In this document: positions 12,470-51,640 of the stretch, one piece after another
How positions within the stretch are numbered: the first letter of the stretch is position 1
How the letters are laid out: the number at the start of each line of letters is the position of its first letter
Assembly (NCBI GenBank): GCA_021804655.1
Contig: JAJZHE010000002.1
Coordinates: 1-54,289, forward strand
Length of the DNA stretch: 54,289 nt
Reading direction: 5' to 3'
Source of the DNA: Acidobacteriota bacterium
Lineage (GTDB): Bacteria; Acidobacteriota; Terriglobia; Terriglobales; Acidobacteriaceae
Notes under the pieces: generated by a model
Databases searched by the model: none
What the model was told of the DNA's origin: nothing
Seen by the model: only the letters and a program-made list of their open reading frames with translations
Translations under genes and position numbers: made by a program

Positions 12470-13789
12470 ATGAGGTGGTCACTCAAAGAATGGATCGTAC
12501 TGGCGGCACTGCTTTTCGCCTTGCCGTATGCACAGGCCGTCCCCAGCTTTGCCCGTCAGACGGGACTTTCCTGCAATGTCTGCCACACCAATCCACCGGA
12601 GCTGACTCCCTTCGGACGCAAGTTCAAGCTGCAGGGCTACGTCCTCACCGATATGACGGCAAAGGACAAGATTGGCAACACACGCGACCTGCTGCTTTCC
12701 AAATACATTCCGCTCTCCGCGATGATCGAGCTTTCCAATACCTCAATCCAGTCCACACAGCCCGGATCGCAGAATAACTCCGCTGGATTTCCGCAGCAGC
12801 TCAGCCTCTTTCTCGCAGGAGCCTTCGCCTCACACTTTGGCGGACTGGCGCAGATCACCTACACCCATGCGGACGATCACTTCGGCATGGACAATACCGA
12901 CCTGCGCTATGCCAACCAGGGAAAACTCGCGGGCAAGGACTGGCAATACGGCATCACAGCCAATAACAATCCTGGCGTCGAAGATATCTGGAACAGCACG
13001 CCTACCTGGGGGTTTCCGTGGATATCCACCGGCGCCGGGGTCGGCTCGCTGGCTTCGCCCGTGATTCAGAATCTGGGTCAGGACGTTGCCGGGGTCGGCG
13101 GCTATGGCATGTGGGATGACCACCTTTACGGCGATCTTTCCATCTATCGCTCTGAACATGCCGGCGCTCCTGTTCCGGTGACTGGAACGGGACAGGCGTA
13201 CAACATCAGCGGCGTTGCTCCCTATTGGCGTATGGCCTGGCAGCAGAACTTCGGCAACAACTACCTGGAGGTCGGCAGCTATGGAATGTATATGAAGTCA
13301 TTCCCCAATGCGATCTCCGGCCCGGAGGACGAGTATCTCGATCCATCGTTTGACTTCCAGTACGAGCGGCCTTTTGGCGCCAATCTGCTGGATGCGCACG
13401 GCACCTGGATTCACGAGAGTTCGACGCTGAATGCAACCTTCGCCTCCGGAGGTGCAAGCACCGCGGATAATCATCTGAATACGCTGAAGCTGGACAGCAC
13501 CTTCCACTGGCGCAGCCGCTATGCTCTGACCGGCGCGCTCTTTCAGACGACGGGAAACTCCGATGCGCTGCTCTACGCGCCAGCCGCGGTCACGGGCAGC
13601 AACAATGGCAATCCCGACACGGCCGGTTACATTGCCCAGTTCAGTTACTGGCCGGTGCAGAATATCGACCTCACGGCGGCCTATACGGGCTATACCAAAT
13701 TCAACGGCGCCAGCAGCAACTATGACGGAGCCAATCGCAATGCTTCCGATAACAACACAGTTTACGTTGCACTCTGGCTCAATTTCTAA
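12470..13789 (+). CDS. Monoheme cytochrome-porin fusion, Cyc2-like outer-membrane protein
   Basis: Signal peptide MRWSLKEWIVLAALLFALPYAQA, then VPSFARQTGLSCNVCHTNPPELTPFGRKFKLQGYVL with a single CXXCH, then a long aromatic/Gly-rich beta-barrel-like region ending in VALWLNF. Confidence 0.7.
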   Translation: MRWSLKEWIVLAALLFALPYAQAVPSFARQTGLSCNVCHTNPPELTPFGRKFKLQGYVLTDMTAKDKIGNTRDLLLSKYIPLSAMIELSNTSIQSTQPGSQNNSAGFPQQLSLFLAGAFASHFGGLAQITYTHADDHFGMDNTDLRYANQGKLAGKDWQYGITANNNPGVEDIWNSTPTWGFPWISTGAGVGSLASPVIQNLGQDVAGVGGYGMWDDHLYGDLSIYRSEHAGAPVPVTGTGQAYNISGVAPYWRMAWQQNFGNNYLEVGSYGMYMKSFPNAISGPEDEYLDPSFDFQYERPFGANLLDAHGTWIHESSTLNATFASGGASTADNHLNTLKLDSTFHWRSRYALTGALFQTTGNSDALLYAPAAVTGSNNGNPDTAGYIAQFSYWPVQNIDLTAAYTGYTKFNGASSNYDGANRNASDNNTVYVALWLNF

Positions 13790-13816
13790 GCTCAATTCTT
13801 CCTCAAGGAGGTCCCA

Positions 13817-14374
13817 ATGCAGGAGAACGCAAACATCCCGGTTTCATCCTCGACAAGCGAGGTGATTGTCATCAACCGTCGTTCATTCATGGGCGCGCTG
13901 CTGGGCATCGGCACTGCGGCCATGGGAGCGTTGCTGGCCGTACCGGTACTGCGGTATGTGCTGTACCCGCTCTATGCTCGCGCCACAGGCTCGGGCTGGT
14001 CAGAGGTGGGCGCAGTCAGCGATTTTGCCACAGCGCAGGCCCCCATCCGCAAGACCATCACCTTCACGCAGCGCGATGGCTGGCGCGAGGTTGTCAGTTC
14101 ACAATCGGTCTATGTGCATCGCGAAGAAAACGGTGATCTGCGCGTTCTCTCGGCCATTTGTCCGCACCTGGGATGCAGCGTCTCCTGGCAGCAGGGGCAG
14201 GATGAGTTTGTCTGCCCTTGCCACGGAGGCCGCTTCAAGCCCAACGGAACGCACGTCTATGGACCGCCGCCGCGCGGGATGGATGAGCTGCCCTCACGCG
14301 TGGATAATGGAAAACTTCAGGTGCACTTTGAGTACTTCCGCTCCAATGTGCCGAACAAGGAAAGACTGAGCTAG
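13817..14374 (+). CDS. Rieske 2Fe-2S protein (bc-complex iron-sulfur subunit)
   Basis: N-terminal TM with RRSFMGALLGIGTAAMG; CPHLGCSV ... CPCHGGRF cluster-binding motifs; RBS AAGGAGG upstream. Confidence 0.95.
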   Translation: MQENANIPVSSSTSEVIVINRRSFMGALLGIGTAAMGALLAVPVLRYVLYPLYARATGSGWSEVGAVSDFATAQAPIRKTITFTQRDGWREVVSSQSVYVHREENGDLRVLSAICPHLGCSVSWQQGQDEFVCPCHGGRFKPNGTHVYGPPPRGMDELPSRVDNGKLQVHFEYFRSNVPNKERLS

Positions 14375-14402
14375 CGACTGAGCTTGAGCAGAAGGGGAAA
14401 TC

Positions 14403-17081
14403 GTGGAAAACGAAAAAAAGACCAGTAATTCCTCCGAGTCTTCCGGTTCCGCACACGGAAAACTCTTCCGCTGGCTCGATCGTCGAGCCGACCTCGACAA
14501 GCTGATGAAGGAGTCCTTGAACGAACCGGTGCCGGGCGGCGCACGACTTGCCTATGTCTTCGGTTCCGGACTGCTTTTCATCTTCATCTCGCAGATCATC
14601 ACCGGCATCTGCCTCGCGCTGTACTATGTGCCCTCGGCAGAGACCGCGCACACCAGCGTGGCCTATATCACCAAGCAGGTTGCCGCCGGTGCATTCCTGC
14701 GCAGCCTTCACTACTACGGCTCCAGCGCGATGATTATCGTGCTGGTCCTTCATTTTCTCCAGACATTTCTTTACGGTTCTTACAAGGGCCGTCGCGAGTT
14801 GCTCTGGCTCTCCGGAGCCACGCTCTCGCTTTTTGTTCTGGGCATGGGCTTCACCGGCTATCTGCTGCCGTGGGATCAGAAAGCCTACTTCGCCACCGCG
14901 GTGGGAACCAATATCGTCGGTGAAGTGCCGCTGATTGGCAACTGGCTCACCCGGCTGCTGCGCGGCGGAGACACCATCGGCACGCTGACGCTCTCCCGCT
15001 TTTACGTCGCACATGTTTTCCTGATTCCCGGCATGATTTTTCTCTTCATCGCCTCGCATATTTTTCTTTTCCGCAAGGCCGGTGCCGCTGGTCCCATGAA
15101 CGAAGACCCGGTTGAGCCGAAGATGCCAGCCGAGTACTTTTATCCGAAACAGGTCATCATGGACATGGCCTTTTCGCTGCTGCTGATGGTTGGCCTCGGC
15201 TTCCTGGCTTACTTCCATCCAGTTGGACTGGGACCGATTGCAAATCCGGCGGATACGCACTTCCTGCCTCGTCCGGAGTGGTATTACCTGCCCATGTTCG
15301 AGTGGCTCAAGTTCTGGGAGGGGCCAAAGGTCGTCTTTGCCGTTGTGGTCGTCCCCGGTTTGCTTGCCGCCGGATTTTTCCTGTTGCCGTTTCTCGATCG
15401 CGGCTTTGAGCGCAGACCCTGGCGCAGGCCGATCCCGTTGCTTGCCGTCGCCATCGTGATGGTCGGCATTGTATATCTGGGCATGCGCAGCGAGATGGAC
15501 GATCGCAGCGACCCCACCACTGCCGCGCAGCTCAAGCTGCAGGAGCAGCAGGAAAAGGCGTACTCCGCAGCCCCATTTCAGCCCTATATCGAGTCTCCCG
15601 GAGGCACAGGCCCATCCGCTTTGCCTAGTGGACCGGTCAGCCCGCTGGTTGCCCAGGGACGCGGCATCTTCCAGGAGCATGGCTGCTCCGGCTGTCACGG
15701 AGATGTGGGTCTGGGCGGTGTCGTCGGACCCAATTTGACCGGAATCACGACCAAATTTCCGGAAGCGCAACTGATCGATCTGCTGCATCATCCGAATGCG
15801 CAGATGCGCGCCGGCAACATGCCTTCCGTGGATATCGCTCCCGATCAGATGAAGGCGCTGCTGGCCTATCTGGCCGTTATCGGAACTCCGTCAGCCAATG
15901 TTCAGGCATCGTACATCACCAATGCTGCGCAAGCCCCATCCTCATCTGGACAGGGAACGAACGGCGGTTCGGCCGCCTCAATGGCTGGACCCGCGGCTGC
16001 GTCATCTGAGGCAGCTCCAGCCAGTCCGTCCACTGAAGCGGTAGCCGGTGCTCAGGTATATCTGGAGCATGGCTGCATCGGATGCCACGGTGCAAACGGC
16101 GTCGGCGGTCGCGCTCCTGCGTTGGCTCCGCTGGTTGCATCGCTCGGAGACGTGCAGTTGATCGCGCTCGTTCAGCACCCCAATGCCAAAATGACCAAAG
16201 GCGGCATGCCTCCGTTCTTTGGCAGCCCGGACCAGTTGCATCAGCTTGTGGCTTATCTCCGCTCGCTGAAGGCTCCTTCGCCTGGAGCAGCTCCGCAGCC
16301 TGCGCCGCAGCAGCAATCGATTGTGCGCTATCCGGACATGGGCACATCCTCTGGCGCTGCTTCGCCACAGACAAATGCTGAGGCAACTGCCCAGACGAAG
16401 CCGGCAGCGATGAGCAGCACAACGGGTGCGGCCATGCCCGGTCAGCAATACTTCCAGGATCTTGGTTGCGTGGCCTGTCATGGGCCAAGTGGTCAGGGAA
16501 CGCGTTTTGCGCCCTCGCTGATTGGCGTTGGCGAGAAGTTTCCCGGCGATAAACTGCCATATCTGCTGCACCACATGACGCCGAAGATGCGCGCCGCCGG
16601 GATGCCGCAGATCATGTTGCCGGAGGCGCAATTCAACGAGCTGATCGCCTATGTACGCAGCCTGAAACCGGTCACGACTACGACGGCCATGGCAGCAGCA
16701 GGCTCATCCACGTCGGCTGCTCCTTCCGCTTCGTTGCAGCAAGGAAATCCAGGAACAGTGTCAGCCAACAATGCTCCTCCCGCGGCACCCAAATGGCAGG
16801 TGTCGCAACTGTCGCCGCTGGCGCTGCAAGGAAGAAAAATCTTCGAACGGAATCGTTGCGAAACCTGCCACGGCATCGATGGTTTGCATGGAACGGTTGC
16901 TGCGCCACCGCTTGCTGGAACGGCATCGCTGCTGCCTGCTGACAGTCTGGAGAGTCTGCTGCGGCACCACACCACGCGCATGCAGCAGGGAGGCATGCCG
17001 CTCACCAATATGAACCCGCCGGACATGCGTGCCCTGGTCACGTATATCCGCGCCTTGCCGGCAAGCGAGGCAGCGCAATAA
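14403..17081 (+). CDS. Cytochrome b (full-length) fused to four tandem cytochrome c domains
   Basis: Heme-ligand His pairs (SLHYYGSSAMIIVLVLH; VAHVFLIPGMIFLFIASH), PEWY motif, then CSGCH (15684), CIGCH (16074), CVACH (16467), CETCH (16857), each followed by a GMP/NMP Met-ligand-like motif. Confidence 0.95.
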   Translation: MENEKKTSNSSESSGSAHGKLFRWLDRRADLDKLMKESLNEPVPGGARLAYVFGSGLLFIFISQIITGICLALYYVPSAETAHTSVAYITKQVAAGAFLRSLHYYGSSAMIIVLVLHFLQTFLYGSYKGRRELLWLSGATLSLFVLGMGFTGYLLPWDQKAYFATAVGTNIVGEVPLIGNWLTRLLRGGDTIGTLTLSRFYVAHVFLIPGMIFLFIASHIFLFRKAGAAGPMNEDPVEPKMPAEYFYPKQVIMDMAFSLLLMVGLGFLAYFHPVGLGPIANPADTHFLPRPEWYYLPMFEWLKFWEGPKVVFAVVVVPGLLAAGFFLLPFLDRGFERRPWRRPIPLLAVAIVMVGIVYLGMRSEMDDRSDPTTAAQLKLQEQQEKAYSAAPFQPYIESPGGTGPSALPSGPVSPLVAQGRGIFQEHGCSGCHGDVGLGGVVGPNLTGITTKFPEAQLIDLLHHPNAQMRAGNMPSVDIAPDQMKALLAYLAVIGTPSANVQASYITNAAQAPSSSGQGTNGGSAASMAGPAAASSEAAPASPSTEAVAGAQVYLEHGCIGCHGANGVGGRAPALAPLVASLGDVQLIALVQHPNAKMTKGGMPPFFGSPDQLHQLVAYLRSLKAPSPGAAPQPAPQQQSIVRYPDMGTSSGAASPQTNAEATAQTKPAAMSSTTGAAMPGQQYFQDLGCVACHGPSGQGTRFAPSLIGVGEKFPGDKLPYLLHHMTPKMRAAGMPQIMLPEAQFNELIAYVRSLKPVTTTTAMAAAGSSTSAAPSASLQQGNPGTVSANNAPPAAPKWQVSQLSPLALQGRKIFERNRCETCHGIDGLHGTVAAPPLAGTASLLPADSLESLLRHHTTRMQQGGMPLTNMNPPDMRALVTYIRALPASEAAQ

Positions 17082-17120
17082 ACCGGACGCATTCTGAGCC
17101 GAGCGCTCGGATTGAACCCG

Positions 17121-17156
17121 CTGGCGGAAGAGTTTGCGCTCTTCCGCCAGTTTTTT
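17121..17156 (+). terminator. Intrinsic terminator of the cytochrome operon
   Basis: Perfect 12-bp stem CTGGCGGAAGAG-TTTGCG-CTCTTCCGCCAG followed by TTTTTT. Confidence 0.92.
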
Positions 17157-17167
17157 GTCGCAGGATG

Positions 17168-17731
17168 TCAGGAGTTCGCAGGGACTGGAGCCGTCTTCGG
17201 TGCCACATTGCTGAAGGCTTCAAACTCCGCGACGATGCGTTGCATGGCGCGTTCGAATGCCTTGTCGCGATTCTTGTGGAAGAGAGCGAAATCGATCGGT
17301 TGAATCATCGACCAGATGGGAATGTCGCTGCGCCGGTCGATCACGGTCGCGCGCAGGCAGGGCTGGCTCATAGAGTTGTCGCCGCCGTTGTAGCCGAAGA
17401 TGGAGCGGCTGGAGGTTTTGATCTCGACGACGAGATCGGCCTGGTCGGGTTGCGCGACAAGTCGATATGCCCCGCTTGCTTTGAGTGCGTTGTAGAACTC
17501 CGCGTATGCGCGCGAAGAGTCGCCGGTGAACGTGTAGGAAAAGCGCGCAATATCGGAGCTTCCGTTTGCGATGAAGATGGCGCCGGGATGCGCAAGCTCC
17601 GGCGGAATGGGGCCGTCTTTCTGTACATCGTAGTTCGATGTTGAGTGTTGAGCCTGAGCGGAGAGATTCGGCGTAAAAAGACTGAGCAGAGAAGCGGACA
17701 ACAACAAGGCAAACCCAAGGGTGCGTTTCAT
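17168..17731 (-). CDS. Exported protein of unknown function
   Basis: MKRTLGFALLLSASLLSLFTPNLSAQAQ signal peptide; the larger 17168-18592 track ORF is overextended. Confidence 0.75.
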   Translation of the reverse strand: MKRTLGFALLLSASLLSLFTPNLSAQAQHSTSNYDVQKDGPIPPELAHPGAIFIANGSSDIARFSYTFTGDSSRAYAEFYNALKASGAYRLVAQPDQADLVVEIKTSSRSIFGYNGGDNSMSQPCLRATVIDRRSDIPIWSMIQPIDFALFHKNRDKAFERAMQRIVAEFEAFSNVAPKTAPVPANS

Positions 17732-43356: not shown

Positions 43357-45735
43357 ATGCAGGGTGAGAACAGGAAGCGCGGTGTGAAGACGATAGGGAC
43401 GATGCTGGCGGCTTGCGCGGCGATTCTGGCTGCGATGGCCTGTGGGAGCAGCAGTGGAACAAAAGCGGCAGGTGGCGTGACGCGCGTACAGATGACCGAG
43501 GATGTAATTGAGCCGCATGTAACGCGGCCGGGAATCAACCTGGGCGAGCAGAATTTTTACGATTCGGGGCAGATGCTGCGCAATCTGGTGGGTCGGAATC
43601 CGGGGTTTGAAGGGATGGAATTTCGCTCGGTGGTGCACTGTGATCGCGAGCAGGATGTCTGTACGGAGACGATCGGCGGCGTACAGTGGCCGACGGGATT
43701 CTGGGACGGCGGCATCTATGAAGCGATGGTGCGAAGGCAGCCGGGCGCGACAGATGTCTTTGTACCTGCGGCAGCGAACGGACGGATCGGGCAGAGTATG
43801 CCGACTGCGGATGGCTTTCGCGTGGAGCCGACCAGCGGCAGTGCGGCGATGGAGCCGGGCGAGTGGGTCAGGTTGAGCAAGGATTTTCCCGGTGATCCGG
43901 CAGCGGGATGGTGGACGAGCCTCCATGGTGGAGCGCGGCTGAGCGCGGAGCGCGGGGATCTTTCGCCGGAGACCGAGGGACGGCAGGCGCTGCGCGTGGA
44001 AGCGGCGATGGCGGGACAAAGTGCGGAGGTTTCGTCGTACTTCGACTCAACGGACGGTCGCCGATTTTTGCAATTTCACGGGGAGTATCTGTTGCGTTTT
44101 CGTGCGAAGCCGCTGGCGGGCGCGGCAAGCCTGCATGTCGAGGTGGGACGCATGGGGCAGCCGGATTTTTTTGCGCAGGAGATCGCGCTGCGCAGCGGAT
44201 GGCAGGACTACGAGTACCGGTTTGCAGCAAAGGACGCGGGCCAGGCGGGAACGGCGAAGCTGAGTTTCACAATTGCTGGAGCGAGCGTGCTGCTGGACGA
44301 TGTTTCGTTGGAAGCGGTGCAGAATCCTGCTGTGCAGAACCCGACGGCGTTTCGCGATGAGGTGGTGGAGACGCTGCGCGCGCTGCATCCGGGCGTGCTG
44401 CGGCTGATGGCGGGCGAGCAACTGGGCGCATCGATGCAGACGCTGCTGGAGCCGCGCATGGCCCGAGAGCGTGTGGGATATTCGGTGTGGAAGGTAAGCG
44501 AAGAAGACGTGGCTGTGGGCGTGCCGGAGTTTCTGGAGTTGTGCCGTGCCGTGGGAGCCGAACCGTGGATTGTGATTCCGCTGAGCACCGACGAGCAGGA
44601 GGTAAAACTGCTCGCTGAGTATCTGGCAGGCGACAACGCGAGCAAGGGTGGGAAGCTGCGCGTTGCCGAGGGCCAGGCGGTTCCGTGGACAAACGTCTTT
44701 CCGCGCATTCATCTGGAACTGGGCAATGAGGCGTGGAACAGCATCTTTCATGGGGAGTCGATGGAAGATGCCGGCGCGTATGGAGCGCAGGCGGAGCGGG
44801 TGTTTGCGGCGTTTCGGCGTCAGGCGAGCGCATACTCCGGTGCGGATCGATTTGACCTGGTGGTGAATGGGCAGGCTGGCGTGCAGTCGCTGCCGGAGGC
44901 GCAGGACGCACTGGCGCTGAACGCGAGCGGCGTGGCGGATACGCTGGCGATTGCGCCCTACATGATGCATACGGTGGACAAGGGCGCGACCGATGCGGAA
45001 TTGTTTGACCCGCTGCTGGCCGAGCCGGAGTACTTTTCGACGAATGGCATGCTGGCTGCGGCGCGACGCGCAGCGGGCGGAAAACGCCTGGCAGTCTATG
45101 AGGTGAATCTGCACGCGACCGAAGGCGCGGCAAGCCAGGCGGCGCTGGATCGGCTGACGCCGTCTGCGGCCGGAGGCATCGCGGTGACGGACCTGATGCT
45201 GCGCATGAAGCGGGATCAGGGTGTGCGCGATGCGATGGTCTTCGGCCTGCCGCAGTACGAATTTCGCCGCAACGATGGCAAGCAGGTGCGGCTGTGGGGC
45301 GCTGTGGTAGATATGGGGCCGACGATGCGACGCAGACCATTGTTTCTGGCCGAGGAGATGCTGAATGAGGCAATCGCGGGCGATATGGTGCGCGTGACAA
45401 CGAGCGGAGCTGATCCGCGACACGCTGTGGCACCGGGCAACGACGGCGTGATGATGGCGTCGGCGCACGATCTGGATTTTTTCGGCTTCAGGAGCCGGGA
45501 TGGGCAGCACCTTCATCGCATTCTGGTGGCATATAACCTTTCACGGACGGTACCTCATGTCGTGCAACTGGAAGGCGTTGCGCGAGGAGCGATGATCCGG
45601 TGGAGTCGGCTTGGCGGCGATCCGGCGGCTTCCAATGAAGATTCTGAGCAGGTGAAGGCAGAGCATGGCGAGAATTCCGTGGAAAGCTTCAGCCTGCCAC
45701 CCTGCTCAATGACAGTGTTGAAGTGGGAGGAGTAA
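43357..45735 (+). CDS. Lipoprotein with a GH51/arabinofuranosidase-like domain and a CBM-like insert
   Basis: Lipobox-like ILAAMACGSSSG; YEYRFAAKDAGQAGTAKLSFTIAGASVLLDDVSLEAV; RIHLELGNEAWN catalytic-type NE motif. Confidence 0.65.
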   Translation: MQGENRKRGVKTIGTMLAACAAILAAMACGSSSGTKAAGGVTRVQMTEDVIEPHVTRPGINLGEQNFYDSGQMLRNLVGRNPGFEGMEFRSVVHCDREQDVCTETIGGVQWPTGFWDGGIYEAMVRRQPGATDVFVPAAANGRIGQSMPTADGFRVEPTSGSAAMEPGEWVRLSKDFPGDPAAGWWTSLHGGARLSAERGDLSPETEGRQALRVEAAMAGQSAEVSSYFDSTDGRRFLQFHGEYLLRFRAKPLAGAASLHVEVGRMGQPDFFAQEIALRSGWQDYEYRFAAKDAGQAGTAKLSFTIAGASVLLDDVSLEAVQNPAVQNPTAFRDEVVETLRALHPGVLRLMAGEQLGASMQTLLEPRMARERVGYSVWKVSEEDVAVGVPEFLELCRAVGAEPWIVIPLSTDEQEVKLLAEYLAGDNASKGGKLRVAEGQAVPWTNVFPRIHLELGNEAWNSIFHGESMEDAGAYGAQAERVFAAFRRQASAYSGADRFDLVVNGQAGVQSLPEAQDALALNASGVADTLAIAPYMMHTVDKGATDAELFDPLLAEPEYFSTNGMLAAARRAAGGKRLAVYEVNLHATEGAASQAALDRLTPSAAGGIAVTDLMLRMKRDQGVRDAMVFGLPQYEFRRNDGKQVRLWGAVVDMGPTMRRRPLFLAEEMLNEAIAGDMVRVTTSGADPRHAVAPGNDGVMMASAHDLDFFGFRSRDGQHLHRILVAYNLSRTVPHVVQLEGVARGAMIRWSRLGGDPAASNEDSEQVKAEHGENSVESFSLPPCSMTVLKWEE

Positions 45736-48776: not shown

Positions 48777-50009
48777 ATGCTGACGACACTGTGGAAACTG
48801 GCGGCAGGACTGGTGTGCGGGCTGAGCCTGCCGCTCTTTGCCGATCTGGCGATTGTCTTGCTGGGCAATGCGGTAGCCACGCTGCGCAGGCCGCCGCGAG
48901 GAGTTGCCAATCGGCAGTGGAATGGTCTGCTGGGCGTCGTGATTCCGGCGCACAACGAGGCGAAGATGATTGCGCGGACGGTGAAGTCGGTGGAGACCTC
49001 CGCCGATGCTGCGGTGCAGGGCTGCGATGGAAGCAGGCGCGCTGTGATGACAGTGGTGGCGCACAACTGCACCGATGGCACGGTGGAGTCGGCTCGTGAA
49101 GCAGGCGCAGAAGTGGTCGAGTTGCGAGACGACGGACGGGATGGAAAATCTGCGGCTCTGCGCGCGGGATTTGCTCATGCGCGCGGCTTCGGTTGTGATG
49201 CGATTGCTGTGATCGACGCGGATTCGATGGTGAACCTGAATTTTGTGGCAGCGATGGAATCGGCTTTGGCGTCTGGAAGCGAGGTGTTGCAATGTCGGTA
49301 TGAACAGACGGCATGCGATGGCGTGCCGGTCAGCGATGGGCAGCGGATGCGCATGCTGGCGTTTCGCGGGATGAATGTGGTGCGCGGGCGAGGACGCGCT
49401 GCGCTGGGATGGTCGAGTGGCATCTTTGGCAATGGATTTGTGTTGCGCCTTGCGCTGTTGGAGCGTGTGCCATACGAAGCACGGAGCATTGCCGAAGATT
49501 TGGAATATCACGCGGAACTGGTGGCGCAGGGCGGTGTGGTGCGCTGGGTGGATGCGGCGCGTGTGACGGCTGCGCTGGCTGATACGAAGGCGGCGCAGGA
49601 CAGCCAGGAAACGCGTTGGGAGGGTGGCAGGCTGCGCGTGGCGCGGACGGCTGGACCTCGGCTTCTGGGTGCTGCGTTGCGTGGAAATCTGCGAGCTGGC
49701 GAAGCGCTGCTGGCGGTGCTGAGCCTGCCATTTTCACTTGGCGTGGCGATGGCGCTGGTGAGCGTTGCGCTGCCCGTGGTGTGGAGTCGGGAATATGGGC
49801 TGGTGTGTATAGGAATCAGTGCGCTCTATGTGGCCGCAGCGGCGCAGATGGGTGAAGAACCAGCGAGAGAATGGCGTGCGTTGCGCGCGGCTCCGGCTTT
49901 GGCGCTGCGCAAACTGATGCTGGTGCCGAGGATTGTGGCGCAGGCAGGCAGACGCGCGGTGTGGGTGAGAACGGGACGGGAAAGCGCGGATGAAGGCAAG
50001 AAGGAATGA
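48777..50009 (+). CDS. Family 2 glycosyltransferase, membrane-anchored
   Basis: LGVVIPAHNEAKMIARTVKSV, VAHNCTDGTVESAREAGAEVV, AIAVIDADSMVNLNF. Confidence 0.87.
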   Translation: MLTTLWKLAAGLVCGLSLPLFADLAIVLLGNAVATLRRPPRGVANRQWNGLLGVVIPAHNEAKMIARTVKSVETSADAAVQGCDGSRRAVMTVVAHNCTDGTVESAREAGAEVVELRDDGRDGKSAALRAGFAHARGFGCDAIAVIDADSMVNLNFVAAMESALASGSEVLQCRYEQTACDGVPVSDGQRMRMLAFRGMNVVRGRGRAALGWSSGIFGNGFVLRLALLERVPYEARSIAEDLEYHAELVAQGGVVRWVDAARVTAALADTKAAQDSQETRWEGGRLRVARTAGPRLLGAALRGNLRAGEALLAVLSLPFSLGVAMALVSVALPVVWSREYGLVCIGISALYVAAAAQMGEEPAREWRALRAAPALALRKLMLVPRIVAQAGRRAVWVRTGRESADEGKKE

Positions 50010-51640
50010 TGGACGCTGAGCAGCAGACGAAGACAGAAAGCGCGCAGCCGGAAATAGAACGGCGCGAGCCTCCGCGGCTGCGAAAAAATGTGGTGACAAC
50101 GATCGGCGCGCGTGCGCTCTATATGATCACGCGCGTGGGCATTCCTCCATTTGTGCTGGCGCGGATCGGGCTGGAAGCGTACGGGCTGTGGACGACGATC
50201 TTCCTGCTGGTCTCCTATCTGGGGCTTTCGACTCTGGGAATCTCCAACGTCTACATCAAGTACGTGGCGGAGTATCACGCGCGGCGCGAGTACGACAAAG
50301 CGAATACGCTGCTTTCGACGGGGTTGTCGATCACCGTGCCGTTGTGTTCGGCGCTGTATGCGGCGATCTGGCTGGGATGGGGATGGGTGGCGAAGCTGCT
50401 GCATCTGCCGGCGTCGCACGCTGCGGACGGCAAGGAAGCTGTGCTGATTGTGGTGGGAATTTTCCTGGCATCGATCTCGCTGAATGTCTTTTCCGACACG
50501 CTGAACGGCATGCAGCAGATTGCGGCGAATCAGTACTTCTGGACGGCGGGATTTCTGGCCGAGTTTGTGCTGATTGTTGTGCTGGTGGGCGGTGGTCGCG
50601 GGATTCGTGGACTGGCGGAGGCCTATCTGGCGCGGACCGTGATCGAGGATGGGCTGAAGATGTGGTGGGCGTGGCGAAAGCTGCCGTGGCTGCATCTGTC
50701 TCCGCGGCTGGCGCGGCGCGCGGCGCTGAAGACGGTGATCCATTTTGGCGGCCTGGTGCAGTTCCAGAGCCTGCTGACGACGATGATCAACTCGATTGAG
50801 CGCATGCTGGCGTTGCTGCTGGTGAATGTGAGCGCGGCGGGGTTGATGGATTTTGCCAAGAAGTGGCCGCAGTCGTTTTCCAGCATTCCGATGGCGTTTT
50901 TTGCGGCATTTCTGCCTGCTGCGTCGCACCTGGAGGCGTCTTCGGATGCGGGGACGAAGCAGAAGAACCTGAGCGATTTCTATCTGCGCGGTGCGCGTTA
51001 TTCCAACCTGTGCACGGCCTATTTCTGCTCGATGATGGCGCTGTGGACGTATCCGATCCTGCACGTGTGGCTGGGGGCGAAGATGCCGATGCCCGGCGTG
51101 CTGACGATGTTGTTTTTTGCTTTCAGCGTTTCGATGCAATTCCACATGCTCACGGGTCCGGGAACGTCGATCCTGCGCGGGATGGGGATGGTGTGGGAAG
51201 AATTTTACTACTCAGTTCCCAACCTCATTTTTCTTGCCGTCACGGTGCCTCTTTCCTATCTATACTTTGAAGCATGGACGACACTAGGAATCGGTGTGGC
51301 AGTTGCAGCGGCCACAATTTGTTCGGCGTGCGTCCTGATGGTGCGCGTGATCTTTGTGCTGCGTGTGAGTGCTGGCGCGTATGTGAAGCAGGTGCTGCTG
51401 CCAGGGTGCGTGCCGTATGCGTCGGCAGCGCTGCTGGCGTGGCCGGTGTGGTGGACGACGGTGCGGCTGGGTCGTTGGACGGGCGCTGGAGTGGTGTTGG
51501 CGGCGGGCGCGCTGCATGGCGCAATCATGATGGCGCTGCTGTATGGAAGCGCGCTGAACGCTCAGGAAAAGCAGCAGGTGAGCCGGATTCCGACGCTTGT
51601 CGGCAGATGGCTGCAAAGCGCGCGGACGGCGGCGCAGTGA
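50006..51640 (+). CDS. Wzx/flippase-like polysaccharide transporter
   Basis: Polytopic membrane protein beginning VVTTIGARALYMITRVGIPPFVLARIGLEAYGLWTTIFLLVSYLGLSTLGISNVYIKYV; ATGA overlap with preceding gene. Confidence 0.85.
   Translation: MMDAEQQTKTESAQPEIERREPPRLRKNVVTTIGARALYMITRVGIPPFVLARIGLEAYGLWTTIFLLVSYLGLSTLGISNVYIKYVAEYHARREYDKANTLLSTGLSITVPLCSALYAAIWLGWGWVAKLLHLPASHAADGKEAVLIVVGIFLASISLNVFSDTLNGMQQIAANQYFWTAGFLAEFVLIVVLVGGGRGIRGLAEAYLARTVIEDGLKMWWAWRKLPWLHLSPRLARRAALKTVIHFGGLVQFQSLLTTMINSIERMLALLLVNVSAAGLMDFAKKWPQSFSSIPMAFFAAFLPAASHLEASSDAGTKQKNLSDFYLRGARYSNLCTAYFCSMMALWTYPILHVWLGAKMPMPGVLTMLFFAFSVSMQFHMLTGPGTSILRGMGMVWEEFYYSVPNLIFLAVTVPLSYLYFEAWTTLGIGVAVAAATICSACVLMVRVIFVLRVSAGAYVKQVLLPGCVPYASAALLAWPVWWTTVRLGRWTGAGVVLAAGALHGAIMMALLYGSALNAQEKQQVSRIPTLVGRWLQSARTAAQ

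Follow-up and report, generated by a model that had tools for sequence, protein, structure and literature searches.

A candidate electron bridge between the quinone pool and the cell exterior in Acidobacteriaceae: a Cyc2-like porin encoded with a Rieske protein and a tetraheme cytochrome b

Three adjacent genes in the genome of an Acidobacteriota bacterium (GCA_021804655.1, 87% complete) probably encode a dedicated route by which electrons pass between the menaquinone pool and the outside of the cell, a function that we infer from genomics alone. The genes lie on contig JAJZHE010000002.1, positions 1-54,289 of which are the stretch of DNA analyzed here (the window, 54,289 nucleotides). Gene 1 (12470-13789, + strand) is an intact open reading frame (ORF) for a Cyc2-like fused monoheme cytochrome-porin of 439 amino acids (aa), gene 2 (13817-14374, + strand) encodes a 185-aa Rieske 2Fe-2S protein that has a single membrane anchor at its N-terminus, and gene 3 (14403-17081, + strand, GTG start) encodes an 892-aa cytochrome b with a C-terminal tetraheme c arm. 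The proposal is carried by the conservation of this gene order and, as the strongest of the new evidence, by the exchange of the outer-membrane conduit beside one subfamily of cytochrome bc complexes.

Conservation of the unit and exchange of its conduit

Homologs of gene 1 were sought in 150 genomes of the order, and their surroundings were read in 40 neighborhoods and then in 80 named loci. In the maximum-likelihood tree, the window gene 1 falls in a clade of 47 rows with a support of 100. The order porin, Rieske, cytochrome b (with four to five hemes) is present in all 44 evaluable rows of this clade, the other three being cut by contig ends. Because it recurs in every evaluable member of the porin clade, the arrangement is far beyond chance. 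An earlier note on this DNA had named a missing barrel or a soluble fold for gene 1, or porin homologs never linked to bc genes in relatives, as grounds against its reading; neither was found, as gene 1 is predicted to be a 16-strand porin and the linkage extends throughout the 47-row clade and to other branches. The carriers of the unit include one cultivated strain, Acidipila rosea DSM 103428 (L094).

Outside this clade, members of the gene-1 family stand beside monoheme versions of the gene-3-type cytochrome b (L048, L052, L054, L066, L112, L118, L125, L150) or next to a split bc complex that has an octaheme subunit together with an immunoglobulin (Ig)-domain cytochrome (L053, L062, L126, L129, L136, L143). 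At the latter loci, and likewise at L063 and L064, the gene-1 homologs adjoin split cytochrome b6/subunit IV genes, a membrane-anchored octaheme c and an Ig-domain cytochrome that is monoheme. The label 'bc_octa' of L128 is likely wrong, since it rests on a distant cytochrome b. Some family members outside the clade adjoin a plastocyanin-type cupredoxin, and plasmid-borne proteobacterial homologs (30-41% identity) adjoin a high-potential iron-sulfur protein (HiPIP) and/or small c cytochromes. A cassette of a gene-1 homolog and a monoheme c is common to related plasmids of Acidithiobacillus ferrooxidans YQ-N3 and Acidiphilium cryptum JF-5 (L152, L153; CP084173.1, NC_009469.1), which suggests mobility between acidophiles. 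A plasmid of Caballeronia sp. SBC1 (L151) encodes a homolog at 41% identity, a HiPIP and a diheme cytochrome in one row, which recalls the carriers used in iron oxidation. Additionally, a Rieske protein, a 428-aa cytochrome b and a hexaheme c are encoded near distant Cyc2-like porins with the motif AIPA[FY]AR[RK][YF]...CxxCH, also with small c cytochromes nearby (L158-L161: G136:C14, G108:C70, G078:C98, G122:C11); this is apparently a second porin-bc association, independent of the main one.

The search with gene 3 in the 150 genomes returned 39 members of its subfamily with an identity of at least 54%, whose neighborhoods were counted by hand, leaving out two copies, one at a contig end (G019) and one broken (G134:C100). 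An outer-membrane electron conduit adjoins 33 of the 37 evaluable copies. In 22 cases it is a member of the gene-1 family, and the copy at G136:C14 has a more distant porin-like neighbor with the related motif AIPAYARRY...CYACH. Ten copies have a decaheme cytochrome and a large barrel in place of gene 1. In nine of these genomes (G024, G028, G036, G060, G001, G003, G102, G114, G068) the Rieske-cytochrome b pair, at 54-62% identity, follows the decaheme and barrel genes; in the tenth, G077, decaheme and barrel are in divergent orientation and the barrel is a plain PF11854 MtrB/PioB protein. The decaheme of the exchanged conduit matches MtrA (6R2Q chain A, E 1e-36). For its barrel, MtrB (6R2Q chain B) was the clear best fold match, with template modelling (TM) scores of 0.56/0.63 from a low-confidence model (predicted local distance difference test, pLDDT, 52). 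A PDB profile search with this MtrB-like barrel found nothing, so the link to MtrB comes from the fold search only. In G122 (L043/L101), a Cyc2-like porin, a Rieske protein, a tetraheme cytochrome b, a decaheme and a barrel are encoded in a single-strand, operon-like row. No PF11854 barrel was found in any of 17 carriers of the unit, including the window genome, and the MtrAB-like pair of G122 escapes this Pfam model.

Since the bc complex keeps its place while the conduits are exchanged, it is best explained as the common inner-membrane partner of two structurally different outer-membrane conduits. This exchange independently supports the suggestion of the earlier note that the unit couples outer-membrane electron exchange to the quinone pool. 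The monoheme relatives often have a gene for a small c cytochrome between the conduit and the Rieske gene; its absence from the tetraheme clade fits a carrier function that became fused into cytochrome b. Two other observations concern related genes. Stops occur within the aligned range of the monoheme cytochrome b matches at G103:C5, G114:C4, G036:C1 and G134:C100, mostly near the gene end, and the last of these looks like a broken cytochrome b copy. At L181 and L182 (G012, G022), a Rieske protein and a 361-aa cytochrome b are encoded with a nine-heme cytochrome of faint similarity to MtrA.

Features of the three proteins and of the locus

Keffer et al. define Cyc2-like proteins by the motif AXPXFAR[Q/K][T/Y] before CXXCH, PXL after it, a length of at least 365 aa and a 16-strand porin (PMC8406198). 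Gene 1 carries the first motif just upstream of its single CXXCH (AVPSFARQTGLSCNVCH; motif row AVPSFARQT-GLS-CNVCH-TNP-PEL), has the PXL about four residues past the CXXCH (CH-TNP-PEL), and at 439 aa exceeds the minimum length. A Sec-type signal peptide was read by eye at residues 1-23 (12470-12538; ...PYAQA before the cleavage site, VPSF after it), so that the mature protein begins VPSFARQTGLSCNVCHTNPPELTPFGRKFKLQGY. The heme c site, CNVCH, occupies residues 35-39 (12572-12586), and its two cysteines and histidine are invariant in the family alignment. The Cyc2-type motif is present in 117 of 126 rows of the gene-1 family. The C-terminal residue of gene 1 is Phe, and an aromatic residue stands at this position in 124 of the 126, as is usual for outer-membrane barrels. 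Neither Pfam nor NCBIfam gave a match for gene 1, and PDB sequence searches with the protein or its profile found no relative. An AlphaFold2 model built with an alignment of 20 relatives has 16 strands (mean pLDDT 72, predicted TM score 0.73), with the outer-membrane beta-barrel predicted at residues 83-438 (12716-13783). The best PDB folds in Foldseek were the 16-strand porins Omp-Pst2, OmpU, OmpF and OmpC (E ~1e-8; TM 0.43-0.50 by query and ~0.55-0.62 by target). The published motifs and length, the one heme site and the predicted barrel thus bear out the assignment of gene 1 as a Cyc2-like cytochrome-porin.

Gene 2 (PF00355, E 4e-13) has the cluster-binding segment CPHLGC...CPCHGGRF (14159-14230) and with it the CxHxGC...CxCH pattern of Rieske proteins in bc1/b6f complexes. 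The Tyr that forms a hydrogen bond in high-potential Rieske proteins is Phe here, as in nearly all relatives read; by comparison with known Rieske mutants, this predicts a lower potential, which would fit menaquinol. In gene 3, the equivalents of b6 and subunit IV are joined in one chain (14460-15497), recognized by Pfam (Cytochrome_B N, PF00033, E 6e-48; C, PF00032, E 7e-7) and by alignment to cytochrome b6, the closest structure (PDB 2zt9, E 5e-46). Its histidine pairs are 103/117 and 204/219, the second pair enclosing 14 residues, a spacing also seen in b6, and the PEWY motif of the quinol-oxidation (Qo) site stands at residue 291 (15273-15284) and is retained in almost all relatives. The four histidines and PEWY are the marks of a diheme cytochrome b of bc1/b6f complexes. 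Val52 aligns to the b6 residue Cys35, which holds heme ci. The window genome gave no match to cytochrome c1 (PF02167), subject to its 87% completeness, and none of the three genes contains a cytochrome f domain.

The C-terminal 480 residues of gene 3 consist of four class-I c domains that are mutually 35-43% identical, each recognized as a Cytochrom_C stretch by Pfam and by its heme motif: 15636-15884 (CSGCH, 15684-15698), 16014-16292 (CIGCH, 16074-16088), 16416-16682 (CVACH, 16467-16481) and 16812-17078 (CETCH, 16857-16871). The CxxCH hemes are at residues 428, 558, 689 and 819, which gives a repeat of 130-131 residues, and the linkers of 41-43 residues are 69-81% Ala/Pro/Ser/Gln/Gly/Thr. The relatives keep four c hemes, with five in L046, L108, L109 and L138. 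In gene 3, a Met-Pro motif follows the CxxCH motifs with their His ligand, and in the relatives it follows 212 of the 220 hemes scored, a pattern consistent with His/Met-ligated, high-potential hemes in the arm. The Pfam matches thus agree with the earlier description of a Rieske protein and of a cytochrome b with tandem c domains, which number four.

All three co-directional ORFs are intact at the coordinates first reported and are separated by short gaps of 27 bp and 28 bp, and a plausible ribosome-binding-site-like sequence precedes each of them. The strong terminator claimed for the end of the unit was recovered at 17120-17151 (+ strand) as an intrinsic terminator with a 14-bp stem, a 4-nucleotide loop and a T run. 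It may serve both directions, because a convergent minus-strand gene lies directly beyond it at 17168. The single candidate promoter of the earlier note was not recovered, as a consensus scan gave no sigma-70-like promoter on the + strand upstream of the unit, which leaves room for other promoter types. Elsewhere in the window, two + strand ORFs at 43357-45735 (792 aa) and 50006-51640 (544 aa) have no Pfam match at 1e-5.

Proposed electron flow and alternative explanations

In the proposed mechanism, quinol would be oxidized at the Qo site of gene 3, and one electron would pass to the Rieske centre and hop along the flexible four-heme arm. The arm would cross the periplasm and dock directly on the porin heme at the inner mouth of the outer-membrane pore, so that no separate soluble carrier would be needed; it would stand in for both cytochrome c1 and the soluble carriers. 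The porin heme might then swap electrons with a small soluble couple entering the pore, most likely Fe3+/Fe2+ at low pH. Net flow would more often be outward, as ferric iron respiration when oxygen is short, with the Q cycle conserving energy. A precedent for this direction is the outward model of At. ferrooxidans, in which electrons run from quinol through bc1, c4, Cyc1/rusticyanin and Cyc2 to Fe3+ (PMC7735108, PMC8790237). Furthermore, reduction of ferric iron at low oxygen is on record for Acidicapsa ferrireducens, Acidicapsa acidiphila and Acidobacterium capsulatum (PMC8790237).

The window genome has a second bc complex (G000:C32, 37% identical) that adjoins COX1 and a COX2-cytochrome c fusion, a caa3-type oxidase, and that is the ordinary respiratory bc complex of the host. 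This leaves the bc complex of the three-gene unit spare for another task. Were it instead an ordinary second quinol:cytochrome c reductase, its fused c domains would feed an oxidase only and the porin would be a chance neighbor. Every bc part is indeed present, and COX1-type oxidases occur in all 17 carriers; however, retention of the porin in 44 of 44 evaluable clade members, the conduit swap beside the bc subfamily and the separate gene set of the housekeeping bc beside the oxidase make this explanation highly improbable, and we strongly disfavor it. Alternatively, gene 1 could be a heme-bearing porin unrelated to iron (serving, for example, redox-gated uptake or exchange with humics or a different soluble redox partner), with the bc complex as a second respiratory one that serves the porin or a periplasmic enzyme. 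In its favor, the family has a wide distribution and includes copies on proteobacterial plasmids next to small c cytochromes, and Keffer et al. regard the function of distant homologs as uncertain (PMC8406198). This account appears quite improbable to us, since an MtrAB-like conduit can take the place of the porin next to this bc subfamily, which speaks for extracellular electron transfer, and since metal oxidation or reduction is the sole role for which porins of this kind have a specific precedent.

Electrons might also flow inward. Gene 1 would then be an iron oxidase, and electrons from Fe(II) would enter by way of the porin heme and continue along the c arm. Either the bc complex would run in reverse, reducing menaquinone for NADH, or the arm would deliver to an oxidase, as with petI of At. 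ferrooxidans. The Cyc2 motif and fold of gene 1, together with the iron oxidation by Cyc2 of Mariprofundus PV-1 and At. ferrooxidans (PMC8406198), speak for this direction, as do the cupredoxin, HiPIP and MtrAB/PioAB-like partners across the family, the presence of two bc complexes in the host, a trait shared with At. ferrooxidans (PMC7735108), and the COX1-type oxidase in all 17 carriers. Nevertheless, we regard it as unlikely: the operon has no oxidase gene, electrons would face a steep uphill step between Fe(II) and menaquinone at low pH, and RuBisCO was not found in 14 of the 17 carriers, nor in Acidipila rosea, which makes the need for reverse flow doubtful. With most of the carriers tested lacking it, reverse flow in the service of CO2 fixation is less well founded, and outward flow is no less likely than inward. 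Because most carriers are without RuBisCO and acidophilic Acidobacteriaceae are known ferric reducers, we place net outward flow, from quinol to ferric iron, somewhat above Fe(II) uptake; this is a judgement, and the parts are reversible. Iron as the substrate and reverse operation of the bc complex are not supported as fact.

Several points weigh against the proposed bridge or its direction. No conduit adjoins four of the related bc operons (G031, G103, G013, G009), which breaks a strict rule. The absence of RuBisCO leaves room for mixotrophic Fe(II) oxidation or another route of CO2 fixation, and the genome is 87% complete. Menaquinone is the quinone expected from general knowledge of the group, and an arm that might span the periplasm is an idea drawn from the domain count and linkers. 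Of the AlphaFold check that had been suggested for 12470-13789, the 16-strand barrel with a porin fold stood, and the heme plug in the barrel was neither borne out nor contradicted, as the heme segment is modeled at pLDDT <50 (residues 17-34 and 41-44). Likeness to Cyc2 was judged by published criteria and fold, and function is uncertain for many distant (Cluster 3) Cyc2 homologs according to Keffer et al. (PMC8406198).

Significance and comparison with known systems

The component parts are already known; the new aspects are the fixed operon, the tethered arm and the conduit exchange, none of which was described in the literature searched, with most subscription journals outside the search. 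We tentatively suggest, with less than even confidence, an acidobacterial class of bc complexes dedicated to extracellular electron transfer, in which a covalently tethered four-heme (sometimes five-heme) arm would reach over the periplasm to a Cyc2-like porin, ferric respiration would run outward with a Q cycle, and the conduit would be modular, with Cyc2-like and MtrAB-like forms interchanging. If true, the unit is a concrete candidate for how acidophilic Acidobacteriaceae exchange electrons with iron; no mechanism for their reduction of ferric minerals was found in the literature searched. The cultivated strain Acidipila rosea DSM 103428 makes the reading testable. A further caution from the findings is that a Cyc2-like gene is not safe evidence of iron oxidation.

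Gene 1 shares with the Cyc2 proteins of Mariprofundus PV-1 and At. ferrooxidans the N-terminal single-heme motif AXPXFAR[Q/K][T/Y]...CXXCH...PXL, the length and the 16-strand porin, and differs in being encoded with a Rieske protein and cytochrome b as one unit. Likewise, the bc1/b6f complexes have the Rieske protein, the diheme b with PEWY and, in b6, the 14-residue histidine spacing, whereas here no cytochrome c1 or f was found, the heme-ci Cys is replaced (Val52), and the c part is the fused four-repeat arm. CbcL/MtoC/MtrH and ImcH, inner-membrane quinone partners in extracellular electron transfer, also join multiheme c to a quinone protein of the membrane and in this way connect the pool with a conduit (PMC6295460); the b domain of CbcL is HydC/FdnI-like and lacks a Rieske partner, in contrast to the true Rieske/cytochrome b with a Qo motif described here. 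MtrAB, MtoAB and PioAB are outer-membrane electron conduits as well, and their homologs replace gene 1 beside the same bc subfamily, but they are two-protein systems with a decaheme in a 26-strand barrel and are absent from the window genome at the Pfam level (PF11854).

The rus and petI/petII systems of At. ferrooxidans also join an outer-membrane Cyc2 to bc, with two bc complexes per cell and a proposed bidirectional operation (PMC8790237, PMC7735108). They differ in their separate soluble carriers (rusticyanin, Cyc1, CycA), their cytochrome c1 and their separate operons, compared with one operon, a tethered four-heme arm and no c1 found here. Known iron oxidizers join Cyc2 to bc through soluble carriers encoded elsewhere, whereas the unit described here encodes both the outer-membrane and the quinone end in a single operon and has a multiheme linker fused in; its outer end is exchangeable for an MtrAB-like conduit.

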